DNA from: Methanoregula sp.
Lineage (GTDB): Archaea; Halobacteriota; Methanomicrobia; Methanomicrobiales; Methanospirillaceae
NCBI RefSeq assembly: GCF_002835825.1
Contig: NZ_PIZH01000018.1
Coordinates: 1 to 12,567 of the forward strand
Direction: 5' to 3'
DNA length: 12,567 nucleotides
The notes under the pieces are model-generated. The model saw nothing but the letters and a program-made list of their open reading frames with translations. It did not search any database and had not been told where the DNA came from. Position 1 is the stretch's first letter. Each line of letters opens with the position of its first letter. The translations under genes and the position numbers were made by a program. Positions 5,556 to 12,565 of the stretch are shown piece by piece.

Positions 5556-5801
5556 TTATCGCCGCACGCAGAAGAACCCGCCGCGGAGGTGGTTCTTTAT
5601 GTAGATCTCGCAGGCCTGACAGAAGCATCCCATCATCTTCATGTCTGTTGCTGACGAGGGACCACGGGCACAGAAGAGCTCGGTGGGCTGGTACTTGTCC
5701 AGGCAGTGGTGCTTGGCATTCGGGCACCGCGTGCAGTAGTTCCTGCAGATCTTCCGGTTCTCTTCGGTATCCTCGATGACGGGTTTGCTGGATTCAAACA
5801 T
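5556..5801 (-). CDS. Cys-rich DUF2769-type protein, copy 1
   Basis: This encodes 81 residues with nine cysteines at 19, 23, 26, 33, 44, 59, 61, 64 and 78. Landmarks are NYCTRCPN, LDKYQP (34-39), LFCARG (42-47), GCFCQACE (58-65) and a closing FFC. This is the DUF2769 pattern known mainly from methanogens: a short Cys-rich protein probably holding zinc or an iron-sulphur cluster, function unknown. It aligns without a gap to the second copy at 9449-9694, which also has 81 residues and shares eight of these cysteines in exact register. The ATG at 5801 has a TATA-like GATATTA (minus TAATATC) about 27 bases upstream, so a leaderless mRNA is likely. It is transcribed divergently from the FMN-binding gene. 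Confidence 0.88.
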   Translation of the reverse strand: MFESSKPVIEDTEENRKICRNYCTRCPNAKHHCLDKYQPTELFCARGPSSATDMKMMGCFCQACEIYIKNHLRGGFFCVRR

Positions 5802-5831: not shown

Positions 5832-5907
5832 GATCTTTTTGTTTTTTCTCCCGTCATCCATCATGCAGTACAGGGACAAGTCCTCGCCCGGTGCAATGTG
5901 TACGGGG

Positions 5908-5945
5908 CTTATTCTGCATGGAGCGATCCTGCGTCGTGCGGAAGG
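5908..5945 (+). promoter_or_regulatory. Candidate promoter and Shine-Dalgarno of the FMN-binding gene
   Basis: CTTATTC (5908-5914) is a weak TATA candidate that would place transcription start near 5937. GGAAGG (5940-5945) then lies eight bases before an ATG at 5954, which is an alternative to the start chosen at 5996. Confidence 0.3.
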
Positions 5946-5974
5946 AAACACCTATGTGCCATTGCCGTGAAGTT

Positions 5975-5986
5975 ATCCTGCAGGAT
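5975..5986. promoter_or_regulatory. 12-bp palindrome just upstream of the FMN-binding gene start
   Basis: ATCCTGCAGGAT is a perfect inverted repeat ending nine bases before the ATG at 5996. Its AGGAT also serves as the best-spaced Shine-Dalgarno for that ATG. It may be an operator, or chance. Confidence 0.25.
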
Positions 5987-5995
5987 GAAATGATC

Positions 5996-6394
5996 ATGGT
6001 TGCACTCAACAGCGAGGTTACGGAGTCCCTTGAAGGGACAAAGATTGTCTTTTTTGCAACGGCGTCAAAGAACGGGATCCCCAACGCGGTGCCGGTGGGG
6101 GCATTCAAGCTCCTTGACGATGCAACGCTCCTCATCTCCGACCAGTTCTTCAACAAGACATTAGCGAACATGAAAGAGAACCCGAACGCGGCGGTCACCT
6201 GGTGGGGGGACAAGGGAGGATTCCAGGTGAAAGGGACCGTGACCATCCACACGGACGACAAGGTCTTTTCAGACGATGTTGCCTGGATGAAGGAGCTCCG
6301 ACCCCAGCTGAAACCCAAGTCCGCGGTTGTCCTGAAAGTGACCGGTGTCTTCAGCATCAAGCCCGGGGCTGATGCCGGCAAAAAGATCCTCTGA
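5996..6394 (+). CDS. FMN-binding split-barrel protein (pyridoxamine 5'-phosphate oxidase-like family)
   Basis: This encodes 132 residues. The order of strands and motifs fits a PPOX-class split barrel. These are a leading helix (LNSEVTESLEGTK), the strand IVFFATASKNGIPNAVPVG (18-35), LLISDQFFNKTLANMKENP (45-63) with the family's N/K-x-T-L-x-N-hydrophobic-x-x-N-P turn, then AAVTWW, GGFQVKGTVTIHTDD and a closing VVLKVTGVFSIKPG. Such proteins bind FMN or F420 at a dimer interface and act as reductases, oxidases or flavin-binding proteins; the substrate here cannot be read. I chose the ATG at 5996 because homologues begin about 20 residues before ATASKNG and AGGAT is well spaced. ATGs at 5990 and 5954 (adding a Cys-bearing MCHC start) are possible. 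The gene is closed by T8 directly after its stop, so it is probably not in an operon with marR. Confidence 0.85.
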   Translation: MVALNSEVTESLEGTKIVFFATASKNGIPNAVPVGAFKLLDDATLLISDQFFNKTLANMKENPNAAVTWWGDKGGFQVKGTVTIHTDDKVFSDDVAWMKELRPQLKPKSAVVLKVTGVFSIKPGADAGKKIL

Positions 6395-6402: not shown

Positions 6403-6449
6403 ATATCCCTCCGCCGGGCATGGTTGAGATCCTGTCCCGGATCACCATC

Positions 6450-6459
6450 TTTATTATTA
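6450..6459 (+). promoter_or_regulatory. TATA box of the marR gene
   Basis: TTTATTATTA is centred about 34 bases upstream of the ATG at 6489, giving a leader of about 8 bases. It overlaps the left half of the TTAG-N11-CTAA site, as expected for a repressor-controlled promoter. Confidence 0.5.
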
Positions 6460-6475
6460 GGCACACCCTAACTAA
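6457..6475. promoter_or_regulatory. Putative MarR operator, marR promoter
   Basis: TTAGGCACACCCTAACTAA contains the inverted half-sites TTAG and CTAA separated by 11 bases. It also has an internal TTAGG-CACAC-CCTAA inverted repeat. The same TTAG-N11-CTAA spacing occurs in the lon promoter at 6930-6948. Its location between TATA box and start codon suggests autorepression. Confidence 0.55.
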
Positions 6476-6488
6476 TTTCGATCGGAGC

Positions 6489-6908
6489 ATGGACGAGACA
6501 GAGGAGCAGCTGTTCGAAGCATTAGGCGGGCTGCTGAAGATCAAGAACGAATGTTCCTGCTCTGTCTTCTCCGAATGCGGCCTCTCCGATATGACCGTAA
6601 AGCAGATCGCGTACCTGAAAGTGATCAATGAACAGGGCGAGGTCACGTTCAGCAGGCTCGCCGAGCTCACCGGGACGTCAAAGCCCACGGTGACCGAGAT
6701 GATCAACCGCTGCGTCCGGATGGACTGCGTGTACCGCGAGCCGTGTCCCGATGACCGCCGGATCCAGTATATCCGGCTCACGGACAAGGGCCGGATGATC
6801 GCCAGGGCCGAACAGGCGGCCCTTCTTCGGGTTGCTGAACGGATGCTGGATGCGCTCGATGACCAGGAACGGGATCTGCTTGTCAGGATCCTGCGGAAAG
6901 TCCGGTAA
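6489..6908 (+). CDS. MarR-family winged-helix transcriptional regulator with six cysteines
   Basis: This encodes 139 residues with a complete MarR fold. It has an N-terminal dimerisation helix, MTVKQIAYLKVI (35-46), the helix-turn-helix SRLAELTGTSKPTVTEMINR (55-74), and the wing with PDDRRIQYIRLTDKG (87-101). A long C-terminal helix (102-123) follows, then a closing dimer helix. It should bind DNA as a dimer. Cysteines at 22, 24, 30, 75, 80 and 86 are unusually many: three precede the DNA-binding domain in ECSCSVFSEC, and three surround the end of the recognition helix and the wing. That suggests redox or metal control. A 5'-extended frame exists, but the ATG at 6489 is favoured by the TATA box and operator directly upstream. 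It sits 55 bases before lon on the same strand, and both promoters share TTAG-N11-CTAA, so autoregulation plus control of lon is the inference. Confidence 0.92.
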   Translation: MDETEEQLFEALGGLLKIKNECSCSVFSECGLSDMTVKQIAYLKVINEQGEVTFSRLAELTGTSKPTVTEMINRCVRMDCVYREPCPDDRRIQYIRLTDKGRMIARAEQAALLRVAERMLDALDDQERDLLVRILRKVR

Positions 6909-6915
6909 TTTTTTT
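6909..6915 (+). terminator. Oligo-T tract after marR
   Basis: T7 follows directly on the TAA of marR and could end the marR transcript before lon. The AATTTTTTT could instead be part of the lon promoter. Confidence 0.35.
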
Positions 6916-6929
6916 CGCCGGAAGAAAAG

Positions 6930-6948
6930 TTAGGTAAATTCGAACTAA
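6930..6948. promoter_or_regulatory. Putative MarR operator, lon promoter
   Basis: TTAGGTAAATTCGAACTAA has the same TTAG-N11-CTAA architecture as the marR site. It is also identical at the following G and at the AA before CTAA. It lies 15 bases upstream of the lon start and overlaps the expected core promoter, so binding there would block transcription. Confidence 0.55.
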
Positions 6949-6963
6949 ATGATTGAGGAAACA

Positions 6964-9348
6964 ATGCAAACGACAACAACAGATGCACCTGAAGAGACGC
7001 TGGTGATACCGCTCTTCGAGCTGGTCGTCTACCCCCAGACACAGACAAAATTCGGGGTGGACAGGACAACCGGAGACTTACTCCTGAAAGCAGAAGGAGC
7101 AACCGGTGCCGCCCATGCGGTGGCACTCACCGTCAGGAGCGGTGTCAGGGCATCCGAACTGACTGCCGGGTCCCTGTATAAGACCGGAAACCTGCTGGAG
7201 GTGGTGCACGTAGAGCCATCCGACGATGGCTATATCATCTGCGCAGAGGTCGTGGAGAGGGTGACCGCTCTTGCGATAACAGAACGGGAGGGGCGGTTTT
7301 ATACCACCTACCGGTCCCTGCCGGATGAACAGGACATCGAGAAAGAGTTGCAGGAGCGGATCCTCACCGACATCAAGCTCACCATCCACGAGACGAGCAG
7401 CCGGTTCTCGGGATCCGAGCAGTTCACGCGGCCGATCGACAGCATGGACTCGATCGACCAGGTACTGGGCTTCGTCATGCCCTTCCTCCCGGTCAGTGTT
7501 GAGGAGAAGCAGGCGCTTCTCGAGATCTCGTCAGTCCGCCAGCGGTACATCACGTTCCTCGAACTCCTGATCCGGACACGGGACACGATCGCGATCCGGA
7601 TGGAGATGGCAAAGAAGGTCTCCGACCGGGTCGGCAAATCCAACCGCGAGGCCATGCTCCGCGAGCAGATGCGGGTGATCCGTGAGGAGCTGGGCGAAGA
7701 GGACGGCCCGGCTGCAGACAGCGGGTACCGCGAGCGCATCGTGCAGTCGAAGATGCCGGAGGACGTACAAAAGAAGGCACTTTCAGAGGTCAGAAAACTT
7801 GAGACGGGCGGGCCGCAGAACCATGAGAGTTCCGTGATCCGGAACTGGCTCGATCTGTTGCTCGACCTTCCCTGGACTACAGAGGAGAAGAAGAGCATTG
7901 ACATCAAAGAGGCACGGAAGGTCCTGGAGAGCCACCACAACGGCCTGGAGAAGGTGAAGGAGCGGATCATCCAGCACCTCGCAGTCATGAAACTCAAGAA
8001 AGAGAAGCAGGGGTCCATCCTCCTCTTCTCCGGACCGCCCGGTACCGGCAAGACGAGCCTTGGGAAGAGCATTGCCGAGGCGCTGGGCCGGAAGTACGTC
8101 CGGATCAGCCTTGGCGGCGTGCGGGATGAGGCCGAGATCCGGGGCCACCGCCGTACCTATGTCGGGGCGCTGCCGGGCAGGATCATCCAGGGCATCCGGA
8201 AGGCCGGGACACGGAACCCGGTCTTTGTCCTGGACGAGATCGACAAGCTGGCCTCATCCTATGCGGGCGACCCGGCCAGTGCACTCCTCGAAGTCCTTGA
8301 CCCGGAGCAGAACAGCACCTTCTCGGACCACTACCTCGAGGTCCCCTACGACCTCTCGGATGTGCTCTTCATCGCAACGGCCAACACCCTGGCAACCATC
8401 CCGGCACCGCTCCTCGACCGGATGGAACTGATCCCCATCTCGGGATACACCAAGAACGAGAAGTTCGCGATTGCAAAGGACCATCTTATCCCGGCAGTGC
8501 TTGCCGAGCACGGCCTCGATGCCGATACCCTCCGGTTCGATGACGACGCCCTGAAAATGATCATCGACAAGTATACCCGGGAGGCCGGTGTCCGCTGGCT
8601 CCGGAAGCAGCTGGCGAAAGCAGCACGCTATGTGTCGGAAAAGATCGTTGAAGGGGTGACAGAGAAGCCCTTTGTGATAACGGTGGAGAACCTGGGGGAG
8701 GTCCTGGGAAAGGAGCTGATCCGCCAGGAGGTAATCCGGAAAGAACCGGTCCCGGGCGTTGTCACGGGGCTTGCCTGGACTCCGGTCGGGGGCGAGATCC
8801 TCTTTATCGAGGAGACGTTCATGCCGGGCACCGGAAAGCTCACGCTCACCGGCCAGCTGGGGGACGTAATGAAGGAGTCGGCGACCATCTCGCTCTCCCT
8901 GATCCGGTCCCGGCTTGCCGGGCAGCAGACAGGATTCGACTTCATGACAAGCGACATCCACATCCACGTGCCCTCCGGTGCAACGCCCAAGGACGGCCCG
9001 TCAGCGGGAGTCACGCTCTTTACCGCGCTCGCGTCGCTCATCACCGGAAAGACGGCTGATCCAGAACTTGCCATGACCGGGGAGATCACGCTTTCCGGGG
9101 CAGTCCTTCCGGTGGGCGGGATCAAGGAGAAGGTGCTCGCAGCCCACCGTGCGGGGATAAAAAAAGTGATCCTCCCGCGGGAGAACCTCCGCGACCTGGA
9201 GGACGTGCCGGAAGACGTGCGGGCGGATCTCGCGTTCGTGCCGGTGGACTCGGTCGAGGACGTGCTCCATGAAGCGCTCGGCATCACCCTCTCTCGTTCC
9301 CTGGGCCGGCATCCCGCAAACAGCGCAGTCCCGGTCCAGAATACCTGA
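6964..9348 (+). CDS. lon: ATP-dependent Lon protease, bacterial LonA type
   Basis: This encodes 794 residues, about the length of bacterial LonA, with all three parts. An N-terminal substrate-binding LON domain starts at LVIPLFELVVYP. A helical region leads to the AAA+ module with Walker A GPPGTGKT (357-364), pore segment YVRISLGGVRDEAEIRGH, Walker B VFVLDEID (420-427) and a sensor ATANTL. The S16 protease domain has the Ser in KDGPSAG (S680) and Lys in GGIKEK (K723), the same 43-residue spacing as E. coli S679/K722. It degrades misfolded and regulatory proteins in the cytoplasm using ATP. Most archaea use the membrane-anchored LonB, which has two transmembrane segments within the AAA+ module; none is present here. 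ATG 6964 is chosen because GAGG (6955-6958) is five bases upstream; ATG 6949 is the alternative and would overlap the operator. Confidence 0.97.
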   Translation: MQTTTTDAPEETLVIPLFELVVYPQTQTKFGVDRTTGDLLLKAEGATGAAHAVALTVRSGVRASELTAGSLYKTGNLLEVVHVEPSDDGYIICAEVVERVTALAITEREGRFYTTYRSLPDEQDIEKELQERILTDIKLTIHETSSRFSGSEQFTRPIDSMDSIDQVLGFVMPFLPVSVEEKQALLEISSVRQRYITFLELLIRTRDTIAIRMEMAKKVSDRVGKSNREAMLREQMRVIREELGEEDGPAADSGYRERIVQSKMPEDVQKKALSEVRKLETGGPQNHESSVIRNWLDLLLDLPWTTEEKKSIDIKEARKVLESHHNGLEKVKERIIQHLAVMKLKKEKQGSILLFSGPPGTGKTSLGKSIAEALGRKYVRISLGGVRDEAEIRGHRRTYVGALPGRIIQGIRKAGTRNPVFVLDEIDKLASSYAGDPASALLEVLDPEQNSTFSDHYLEVPYDLSDVLFIATANTLATIPAPLLDRMELIPISGYTKNEKFAIAKDHLIPAVLAEHGLDADTLRFDDDALKMIIDKYTREAGVRWLRKQLAKAARYVSEKIVEGVTEKPFVITVENLGEVLGKELIRQEVIRKEPVPGVVTGLAWTPVGGEILFIEETFMPGTGKLTLTGQLGDVMKESATISLSLIRSRLAGQQTGFDFMTSDIHIHVPSGATPKDGPSAGVTLFTALASLITGKTADPELAMTGEITLSGAVLPVGGIKEKVLAAHRAGIKKVILPRENLRDLEDVPEDVRADLAFVPVDSVEDVLHEALGITLSRSLGRHPANSAVPVQNT

Positions 9349-9448: not shown

Positions 9449-9694
9449 TTACTGCTGCTGGCAGAAGTGCCCGATGACCAGGCTGTGCCGGGCGAAGAGC
9501 TCGCAGGCAGGACAGAAGCATCCTGCTTCTTTCCTGTGGGGTGCGCCCGATGTCCCGCGGGAACAGAAGAGCGCGACGGGTTGGTACTTGTCCAGCAAGT
9601 TCTGTCGGTAACTTGGGCAGGCGCCGCAGTACTTCATGCAGATCTGTTCATTCAGAGGGGAGTCCTCCACCTTTGTTGTGTCAGGTTTCATCAT
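9449..9694 (-). CDS. Cys-rich DUF2769-type protein, copy 2
   Basis: This encodes 81 residues with eight cysteines at 19, 23, 26, 44, 59, 61, 64 and 78, the same positions as in copy 1. Shared blocks are KYC/NYC-x2-CP, LDKYQP (34-39), LFC-x-RG (42-47), GCFC-x-ACE (58-65) and G-x-FC near the end. By eye about 35 of 81 positions are identical with no gap. The frame is open further upstream to 9751, but the ATG at 9694 is chosen because it gives exactly the length and register of copy 1. It also has a TATA-like GATAAGAG (minus CTCTTATC) about 27 bases upstream. The cysteines probably bind zinc or an iron-sulphur cluster; the function of the family is unknown. It is monocistronic and converges on lon. 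Confidence 0.88.
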   Translation of the reverse strand: MMKPDTTKVEDSPLNEQICMKYCGACPSYRQNLLDKYQPVALFCSRGTSGAPHRKEAGCFCPACELFARHSLVIGHFCQQQ

Positions 9695-9717
9695 AATGGA
9701 TGGATAGTGCGATCCGG

Positions 9718-9725
9718 GATAAGAG
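9718..9725 (-). promoter_or_regulatory. TATA box of DUF2769 copy 2
   Basis: The minus strand reads CTCTTATC, centred about 27 bases upstream of the ATG at 9694. It supports a leaderless start there rather than at the further-upstream ATG. Confidence 0.45.
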
Positions 9726-9770
9726 GTTTCTCCCACCGGGTCCAGGAACATGAGGCCCCCCTCCGCCCCA

Positions 9771-11183: not shown

Positions 11184-11383
11184 CCGCTCCCGGGATCCGT
11201 CGCTTCCCTTGAGGGAGAAAACCGCTCAAGGTAACATTCTCCCGAGGAAAGGCTCGTACCGGGGGCAAGTTCAAGAAGGAGAGATGAGGCATGGTCATGG
11301 CAGACATACGCAGTGCAACACCCAAAGGACTCAACGCCAATCGCGTCCTTCCCGCATCGTGCACACTTCTTTTCTTCGGCCAT
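11180..11383 (-). CDS. Small zinc-finger-like protein preceding the MFS transporter
   Basis: This encodes 67 residues. KCARCGKDA (C7, C10) is followed by the segment FGCCTAYVCHDHA, giving a CxxC...CC...C-x2-H array typical of treble-clef or RING/AN1-like zinc fingers. One more Cys follows in GECYLERF. It resembles in layout the short archaeal DUF2180-type proteins, but I cannot assign it. The ATG at 11383 is chosen over the upstream frame start at 11437 because GGAG lies seven bases before it and the finger begins at once. Its TGA overlaps the GTG start of the transporter gene by four bases. A role as regulator or partner of the transporter is suggested only by this coupling; the fold alone could bind DNA, RNA or protein. 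Confidence 0.75.
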   Translation of the reverse strand: MAEEKKCARCGKDAIGVESFGCCTAYVCHDHASSLLLELAPGTSLSSGECYLERFSPSREATDPGSG

Positions 11384-11500
11384 GGCTATACTCCGGTTTT
11401 GCATGTCAGATACATGAGTCTTTGTGGTCTTTTGCATGGCCAGCCCATGGATTATGGTAGGAAACGGGAGACTGCGAAAATAACCGCACTCATCGCCACG

Positions 11501-11507
11501 TATATTT
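11501..11507 (+). promoter_or_regulatory. TATA box of the serpin gene
   Basis: TATATTT is centred 27 bases upstream of the ATG at 11531. It predicts a leaderless transcript and argues against the longer frame beginning at 11291. Confidence 0.55.
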
Positions 11508-11530
11508 CCCCAACAGATAAAACCGGAAGT

Positions 11531-12565
11531 ATGAAAAAAGAATTCCTCTCCGCAGGGATCCGCATATCCCTCATCATTGCAACTCTCCTCGTGGCAGGCT
11601 GTACCGGCCCTGCCGGTTACCCGGTCTCATCCCCGGGGGAGACCTCCATCGTCACCCCTTCGCCATCACCCGGCGCTACCGGGACGCCGGGTGATGCCGG
11701 GTCGGTTGCCAAAGCAAACAACCTGTTTGCCTTTGACCTCTACCCGGCCCTTGCCGTGCTACCGGATACTGCCAACAGGAACCTCTTTTATTCCCCGTTC
11801 TCCCTGTCAACCGCCCTTGCGATAACCGGTGAAGGGGCAAACGGGAAGACCGCAGATGAGATCTTTTCCGTTCTCCACCTCCCAAAGGACCCCGTTACCC
11901 GTCGCACCGGGTTTGCCGGTCTGAACGCAAGACTCAACAATGCCAGTGCCGACTACACACTCCGGACCGCAAATGCGCTCTGGGCAGAGAAGACCTATGC
12001 GTTCCTCCCGTCCTTTACCGGGACTGCCCGCCAGTACTATTCCGCTGAAACCACGAACCTGGACTTTTCAAGGGCTCCGGAGGAATCACGGTCAACCATC
12101 AACAACTGGGTTGAGGAAAAGACCGAGAAGAAGATCCGCGACCTCCTTCCACAGGGAAGCATCACTCCCCTGACCCGCCTCGTTATAACGAACGCGATCT
12201 ACTTTAAGGGAACCTGGGCCCGGCAGTTCGATGCGAATCTCACAGGAGATGCGGATTTCACCACCTCTTCAGGACAGGTCATAAAAGTCAGGATGATGCA
12301 GGACAGGGGAGAAGACGCGAAATACTGGTATGCTGAAACCGCCGATCTCCAGTACATCGAACTCCCGTATTTCCAGAAAACAGGAAAATCGCTGTCCATG
12401 GCCGTCCTGCTGCCGAAAGGAAATGACCTCAGCCCTGCAGAAGCTGCCCTTTCTGAGAGCAACCTTTCAGCACTCAAACAGAGCGCACAGCACCGGACGG
12501 AAGAGGTGTACATCCCGAAATTCCGCGTCGAGACCGGGAATACGCTGGCCCTTATCCAAATCTGA
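11531..12565 (+). CDS. Serpin-family protease inhibitor, predicted lipoprotein; frame broken or truncated at C-terminus
   Basis: This encodes 344 residues up to a TGA two bases before the window end. A signal peptide with lipobox LLVAGC (C24) predicts lipid anchoring on the outer face of the membrane. A Pro/Ser/Thr-rich linker (about 25-55) leads into the serpin fold. Visible family landmarks are NLFYSPFSLSTALAITGEGA and GKTADEIFSVLHL, then NNWVEEKTEKKIRDLLP, RLVITNAIYFKGTWARQF and VYIPKFRVET. Serpins trap serine or cysteine proteases through a reactive-centre loop near the C-terminus, and that loop is absent here. In frame the end reads NTLALIQI-stop; one extra C near 12558 would continue as LALIPNLK, the expected helix before a 'MGM'-type turn. 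So the gene is a frameshifted pseudogene or carries a one-base sequence error. The promoter and signal peptide are intact. Confidence 0.85.
   Translation: MKKEFLSAGIRISLIIATLLVAGCTGPAGYPVSSPGETSIVTPSPSPGATGTPGDAGSVAKANNLFAFDLYPALAVLPDTANRNLFYSPFSLSTALAITGEGANGKTADEIFSVLHLPKDPVTRRTGFAGLNARLNNASADYTLRTANALWAEKTYAFLPSFTGTARQYYSAETTNLDFSRAPEESRSTINNWVEEKTEKKIRDLLPQGSITPLTRLVITNAIYFKGTWARQFDANLTGDADFTTSSGQVIKVRMMQDRGEDAKYWYAETADLQYIELPYFQKTGKSLSMAVLLPKGNDLSPAEAALSESNLSALKQSAQHRTEEVYIPKFRVETGNTLALIQI

Follow-up and report, generated by a model that had tools for sequence, protein, structure and literature searches.

In a stretch of DNA from Methanoregula sp. (contig NZ_PIZH01000018.1; 12,567 nucleotides, analysed whole and called the window here), the gene for a MarR-family protein, marR (6489..6908, + strand), is directly followed by lonA (6964..9348, +), which encodes a bacterial-type Lon protease of the LonA class, and each gene is preceded by an inverted repeat of the form TTAG-N11-CTAA. 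Comparison of this locus across methanogen genomes suggests that the product of marR is probably a dedicated repressor of itself and of LonA, acting through the two repeats as putative operators. Both 19-mers are present exactly where the original prediction had placed them: putative operator 1, TTAGGCACACCCTAACTAA, at 6457..6475 (+) in the marR promoter, and putative operator 2, TTAGGTAAATTCGAACTAA, at 6930..6948 (+) upstream of lon. They are designated as such for their rarity in the window and the genome and for their conservation.

Rarity and conservation of the two sites

TTAG-N11-CTAA is matched at these two places in the window, against 0.04 matches expected by chance, and none of 200 shuffles of the window contained two. 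The host genome (2.6 Mb in 814 contigs) holds the pattern at three places and a reversed control pattern at 20; the third place (C168:2144) is probably a chance match, since it lacks the longer consensus (G5/AA) and overlaps the final bases of a doubtful open reading frame (ORF) of 195 residues. The left–right asymmetry of the repeat relative to transcription is the same at both genes, with TTAGG as the left arm and TTAGTT as the right arm in nearly all of 69 marR sites and 60 lon sites.

Among 150 genomes of the order Methanomicrobiales, 49 carry an orthologue of this MarR protein (at least 56% identity, other matches reaching at most 39%), one of them as a fragment cut off by the end of its contig, and lonA directly follows marR in all 49 loci, including one (G092) where the contig holds only the start of lon. 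The original prediction had proposed seeking the motif upstream of orthologous marR–lon pairs, and this search found it: at marR in 48/48 testable loci (44 exact, four with one mismatch; a forty-ninth locus is untestable) and at lon in 39/49 (38 exact, one with one mismatch), the remaining 10 lon sites being called absent as their best match had 4 or 5 mismatches over the 11 set bases. The same holds further afield. A sample of 294 genomes from the phylum yielded the orthologue in 44, of which 23 belong to Methanomicrobiales and 21 to one other family, taken to be Methanosarcinaceae; in 21/21 of the latter loci lon is adjacent and both sites are present with at most one mismatch (marR site, 17 exact and four with one mismatch; lon site, 20 exact and one with one mismatch). 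The MarR proteins of this family have 47–63% identity to that of the window, and both sites are kept nonetheless. Some site variants of this family are nearly perfect palindromes (TTAGTTAGCACCTAACTAA), and operator 2 remains next to marR as its gap to lon widens.

A further set of named records, the best 80 of 119 loci, covers Methanoregula, Methanoculleus, Methanospirillum, Methanosarcina, Methanolobus and other genera, and overlaps in some genomes with the order and phylum samples. At marR, 73 of the 79 loci that could be tested have an exact motif, five more have one mismatch and one has two; at lon, 65 of 80 have an exact motif and two more have one mismatch. As a control, 3,244 stretches, each of 159 bases and taken from other parts of these loci, contain it once. 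Lon is adjacent to marR in 79 of these 80 loci, the exception being a contig end. Judged by these comparisons, the site pair is an old, locus-specific set of putative operators.

Genome-wide counts point the same way. The longer consensus TTAGG-N8-AACTAA has 86 matches in the 150 Methanomicrobiales genomes, 82 of them at marR or lon (44 and 38, respectively) and four elsewhere, and it occurs in 50 genomes, namely in each of the 49 that have the MarR orthologue and in a single one of the 101 others; per genome, the reversed control pattern gives 0 to 9 matches. If the encoded MarR protein had a local regulon with two targets, the motif should be found at both genes and nearly nowhere else, as it is, so that the proposal of such a regulon, in which MarR would control itself and LonA, gains support both from the orthologous pairs and from the 82 of 86 matches at marR or lon. 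In 21 genomes of the Methanosarcina group scanned whole there are 59 matches, 39 at marR or lon and 20 elsewhere, and 84 matches to the reversed control. A wider regulon was considered and is not supported by the off-locus matches (4/86 in the order, 20/59 in the Methanosarcina group) when set against these control counts, the genome-wide scan for sites with one mismatch having covered six genomes.

LonA is found in 52 of the 150 genomes (E≤1e-100), of which 48 also carry the MarR orthologue; the forty-ninth MarR genome is G092. The four LonA genomes without it have one intact gene (G143), one cut by a contig end (G121), one C-terminal remnant with a stop (G113) and one N-terminal remnant (G011). 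The broken remnants in the last two (loci L176 and L177) have no marR, and the fetched stretches around them contain no site at up to two mismatches, as though the loss of marR and that of lon went hand in hand. Fourteen more genomes without this MarR were checked, of which three have an incomplete lon match (starting from residue 171, 553 or 671) and 11 have none at E≤1e-40. Genomes with lon and without marR thus offered little as a natural control. In G143 (L174 1260-1300, G143:C6), intact lon without a marR orthologue is preceded by a one-mismatch site abutting a TATA-like box; this genome has 13 one-mismatch places for the motif and 41 for the control pattern. The layout in G143 resembles the loss of marR from under its own promoter. 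In another locus (L006; G085:C1:2604246-2606623) the lonA match is split into two overlapping stretches in different frames, that is, a frameshift or a sequencing error.

Promoter and leader architecture

Comparison of 69 loci places a TATA-like box of the marR promoter, CTTTATTA, at 6449..6456 (+), directly abutting operator 1. The eight bases preceding the marR site read CTTTATNN or are TATATA-like in most of these loci (mean A+T 0.81), the TTTATA-like form prevailing in Methanomicrobiales and the TATATA-like form in Methanosarcinaceae, and only 13 bases separate the end of operator 1 from the marR ATG at 6489. With a TATA-like box directly before the site, a bound dimer would therefore probably compete with the basal transcription machinery. 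The original prediction had described the order core promoter element, site, start codon for both genes; this stands for marR, where CTTTATTA precedes the site, and does not for lon, where there is no conserved TATA box directly adjacent, only an oligo-T run (6909..6915, +) that ends 14 bases upstream of the site.

This oligo-T run lies right behind the marR stop codon and, from the locus comparison, is probably the marR terminator or else a far-upstream part of the lon promoter. In Methanomicrobiales a run of at least five T follows marR in 39/39 loci with a lon site versus 0/10 without one (Fisher p 1.2e-10, a value that ignores relatedness), and on a tree of 69 MarR proteins, from which the fragment G145 was left out, the presence or absence of the lon site changed at least six times. 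In Methanosarcinaceae the run is found in 18/21 loci, though the lon site is present in all 21. The simplest reading of these patterns is that the run would end the marR transcript and that lon would have its own operator-controlled promoter beyond it; alternatively, the run is part of the lon promoter. Where both the run and the lon site are missing, as in ten Methanomicrobiales loci, lon is probably read from the marR promoter, under operator 1.

The start of lon had originally been put at an ATG at 6949, abutting the site. This must be revised: the conserved start is the ATG at 6964, and of the 27 compared loci that carry a lon site, 19 lack an ATG at the position corresponding to 6949. A Shine-Dalgarno-like GAGG (6955..6958, +) precedes the conserved start, with a similar layout in many relatives. 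With the start of lon taken at 6964, the first base of the site lies 32–34 bases before the start codon at both genes (6489 for marR, 6964 for lon).

The MarR protein

The marR product is a winged-helix protein of 139 residues, and its assignment to the MarR family, made in the original prediction, is borne out by two profiles (PF12802, 49.5 bits against a cut-off of 27; PF01047, 43.8 bits against 24.6), by the architecture of a winged helix between N- and C-terminal dimerisation helices, and by an inverted repeat in the marR promoter (no more than one mismatch in any testable locus, 48/48 in Methanomicrobiales and 21/21 in Methanosarcinaceae). It falls below the cut-off of the NCBIfam equivalog for the SlyA subfamily (25.9 bits versus 120) and below that of the DtxR/IdeR family profile PF01325 (21 bits versus 26). 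Its winged-helix part (residues 35–109) superposes on DtxR (1g3y) with a root-mean-square deviation of 1.1 Å over 68 residues at 28% identity, and this DtxR-like wing may be the source of the DtxR-like TTAGGT arm. Two further MarR structures, 3gfi (the Sulfolobus protein ST1710, DNA-bound) and 3bpx (MTH313 of Methanothermobacter), have 18% and 20% identity to the window protein, respectively; we know of no link of ST1710 or MTH313 to lon.

The predicted recognition helix opens with Ser64-Lys65-Pro66-Thr67, a core that is invariant in 70/70 proteins, in step with the conserved TTAG and CTAA arms of the sites. Three cysteines are largely conserved (Cys22 in 66/69, Cys30 in 68/69 and Cys80 in 68/70 proteins, one MarR fragment not spanning the first two), which suggests thiol or metal sensing.

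Proposed mechanism and alternatives

We envisage that in unstressed cells a MarR dimer would occupy operator 1, immediately behind the TATA-like box of marR, and operator 2, just before lonA, and would keep the archaeal transcription machinery from assembling or escaping there, giving negative autoregulation together with repression of LonA. A signal lowering the affinity of MarR for DNA would then let marR and lonA rise together; LonA would clear damaged protein and the extra MarR would reset the switch. As to what the signal might be, our leading guess is thiol or metal chemistry involving Cys22, Cys30 and Cys80, or thermal unfolding. The data establish the sites, the constancy of their position and spacing, their near-confinement to this locus, the MarR fold and the invariant core of the recognition helix; that MarR binds the sites, that it represses and does not activate, and what it senses we infer from sequence.

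Some observations weigh against repression of both genes from the two sites. Because no clear TATA box stands beside operator 2, the way in which it would block lon is less obvious than at marR, and the terminator reading of the oligo-T run is imperfect in Methanosarcinaceae, where three of 21 loci keep the lon site without the run. The fixed TTAGG/TTAGTT polarity is not needed by a symmetric dimer. That MarR-less genomes lack the motif is in part trivial, as a genome without the locus is also without its sites; the near-total confinement of the motif to marR and lon is the non-trivial part. Finally, the one-mismatch lon site in G143, in a genome lacking marR, may reflect a recent loss of marR, another user of the site, or chance.

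An extension of the repressor model, which we regard as possible but rather doubtful, is that MarR is a protein-quality sensor whose cysteines or heat-labile fold would register proteotoxic or oxidative stress and free only MarR and LonA, with LonA degrading its own repressor in a two-gene feedback loop. If true, Phr and HSR1 would be joined by a separate proteostasis switch in archaea, kept together with a bacterial-type LonA in methanogens that also carry LonB.

It is also conceivable, and in our judgement unlikely, that MarR binds both sites as an activator of lonA, with or without repression of its own gene, much as SlyA or RovA act. The position of operator 2, downstream of the oligo-T run and with no conserved adjacent TATA box, could indicate a weak lon promoter that needs help, and RovA is described as an autoactivator (PMC2676509) and SlyA as able to act both ways (PMC5797941). 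However, a dimer on operator 1, directly downstream of the TATA-like box and 13 bases from the start codon, would more likely block than help, and the loci that lost operator 2 appear to depend on operator 1 alone.

DtxR/IdeR boxes follow a symmetric 19-bp consensus and occur at several genes of a regulon. The original prediction had kept such a regulator in view for the TTAGG...CTAA form of the sites; that a different protein, for example a DtxR/IdeR-type metal repressor, binds the sites is very improbable. The regulon part of this idea is weakened because the symmetric box TTAGG-N9-CCTAA is found in 11 of 80 genomes, not above the reversed control, and is absent from the genome of the window; from a metal regulator one would expect sites at further genes, whereas here 82 of 86 matches lie at marR or lon, and operator 1 sits in the promoter of marR itself.

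The repeats would be core-promoter or 5′-leader elements common to both genes, rather than protein operators, on a further explanation to which we give little more than token weight: their dyad symmetry, approaching perfect palindromes in Methanosarcinaceae variants, their near-absence from all other places in the genomes sampled, and the way in which operator 2 of Methanosarcinaceae stays by marR as the distance to lon grows all speak against it, in spite of the polarity fixed relative to transcription at both sites and the tight placement behind the TATA-like box at marR, which it would accommodate. Chance likeness of two A+T-rich intergenic stretches is refuted by the comparative data (two matches in the window against 0.04 expected, conservation in two methanogen groups, and 1 in 3,244 control stretches) and has a negligible probability.

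LonA and neighbouring genes

The lonA product scores 848 bits against the endopeptidase La equivalog TIGR00763 (cut-off 608) in a search that used the ORF from 6949, the start at 6964 being chosen by comparison with relatives. Its translation has the LonA active-site motif PKDGPSA, as defined in PMC2605481, within ATPKDGPSAGVT. LonB is above its cut-off in 12/12 genomes checked, that is, LonA is carried beside LonB.

Around the marR–lon pair, two small cysteine-rich DUF2769 genes lie on the opposite strand on either side (5559–5801, −; 9452–9751, −), and a gene for a pyridoxamine-5′-phosphate-oxidase-like flavoprotein is found directly upstream of marR (5891–6394, +). Further downstream, a reading frame open to the end of the window (11291–12565, +) has a lipoprotein-type start and was named by eye as serpin-like, that is, a protease inhibitor.

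Relation to known systems and significance

A regulator with one site at its own promoter and another at a neighbouring gene is an ordinary layout in the MarR family, to which the SlyA/RovA-type protein RovA also belongs. SlyA has TTAG-type half-sites (TTAGCAAGCTAA) and a SlyA-type site before slyA (PMC5797941), and MepR, with GTTAG half-sites, represses itself and binds to its own promoter as well as to that of its target gene (PMC3617543). Family and TTAG half-sites are shared with the system described here, but the SlyA spacing is TTAG-N4-CTAA as opposed to the wider TTAG-N11-CTAA, and here the target is a protease and the operator abuts an archaeal TATA-like box. RovA of Yersinia, a protein thermometer and autoactivator degraded by Lon (PMC2676509), is likewise a MarR-type protein functionally tied to Lon, and differs as an autoactivator and Lon substrate; the abstract and section list of that paper mention no control of lon by RovA. 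In Salmonella, the transcription factor LoiA binds the lon promoter and so represses the gene (PMC8308502); unlike the MarR protein of the window, it is a bacterial regulator linked to pathogenicity-island genes.

In function, the closest archaeal parallels are two autoregulators, Phr of Pyrococcus furiosus and HSR1 of Archaeoglobus fulgidus, each of which has a protein-quality AAA+ gene under its control as well (PMC9133787, PMC10653856, PMC5852551). According to a review, no other regulators of the heat-shock response are known in archaea (PMC9133787). Both are assigned to arCOG01684, with Hsp20 and CDC48, not LonA, as the named targets (PMC5852551). The HSR1 site, CTAAC-N5-GTTAG, contains similar words to the window sites in the opposite arrangement; as a candidate operator it was sought in the window, with 0 matches at up to one mismatch. 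Among 39 PDB sequence matches of the MarR protein at E≤1e-3 none is named Phr, Phr itself not having been directly compared. Among the papers listed by full-text searches of PMC, none has a title or abstract start that describes MarR control of an archaeal lon.

The two-operator MarR–LonA module common to Methanomicrobiales and Methanosarcinaceae is a testable candidate for setting the level of LonA in methanogens. Given its small target set (usually two sites per genome), its simple geometry and the availability of Methanosarcina genetics, the question could be quickly settled, and the MarR protein with its sites is a candidate repressor–operator pair for methanogen genetics.
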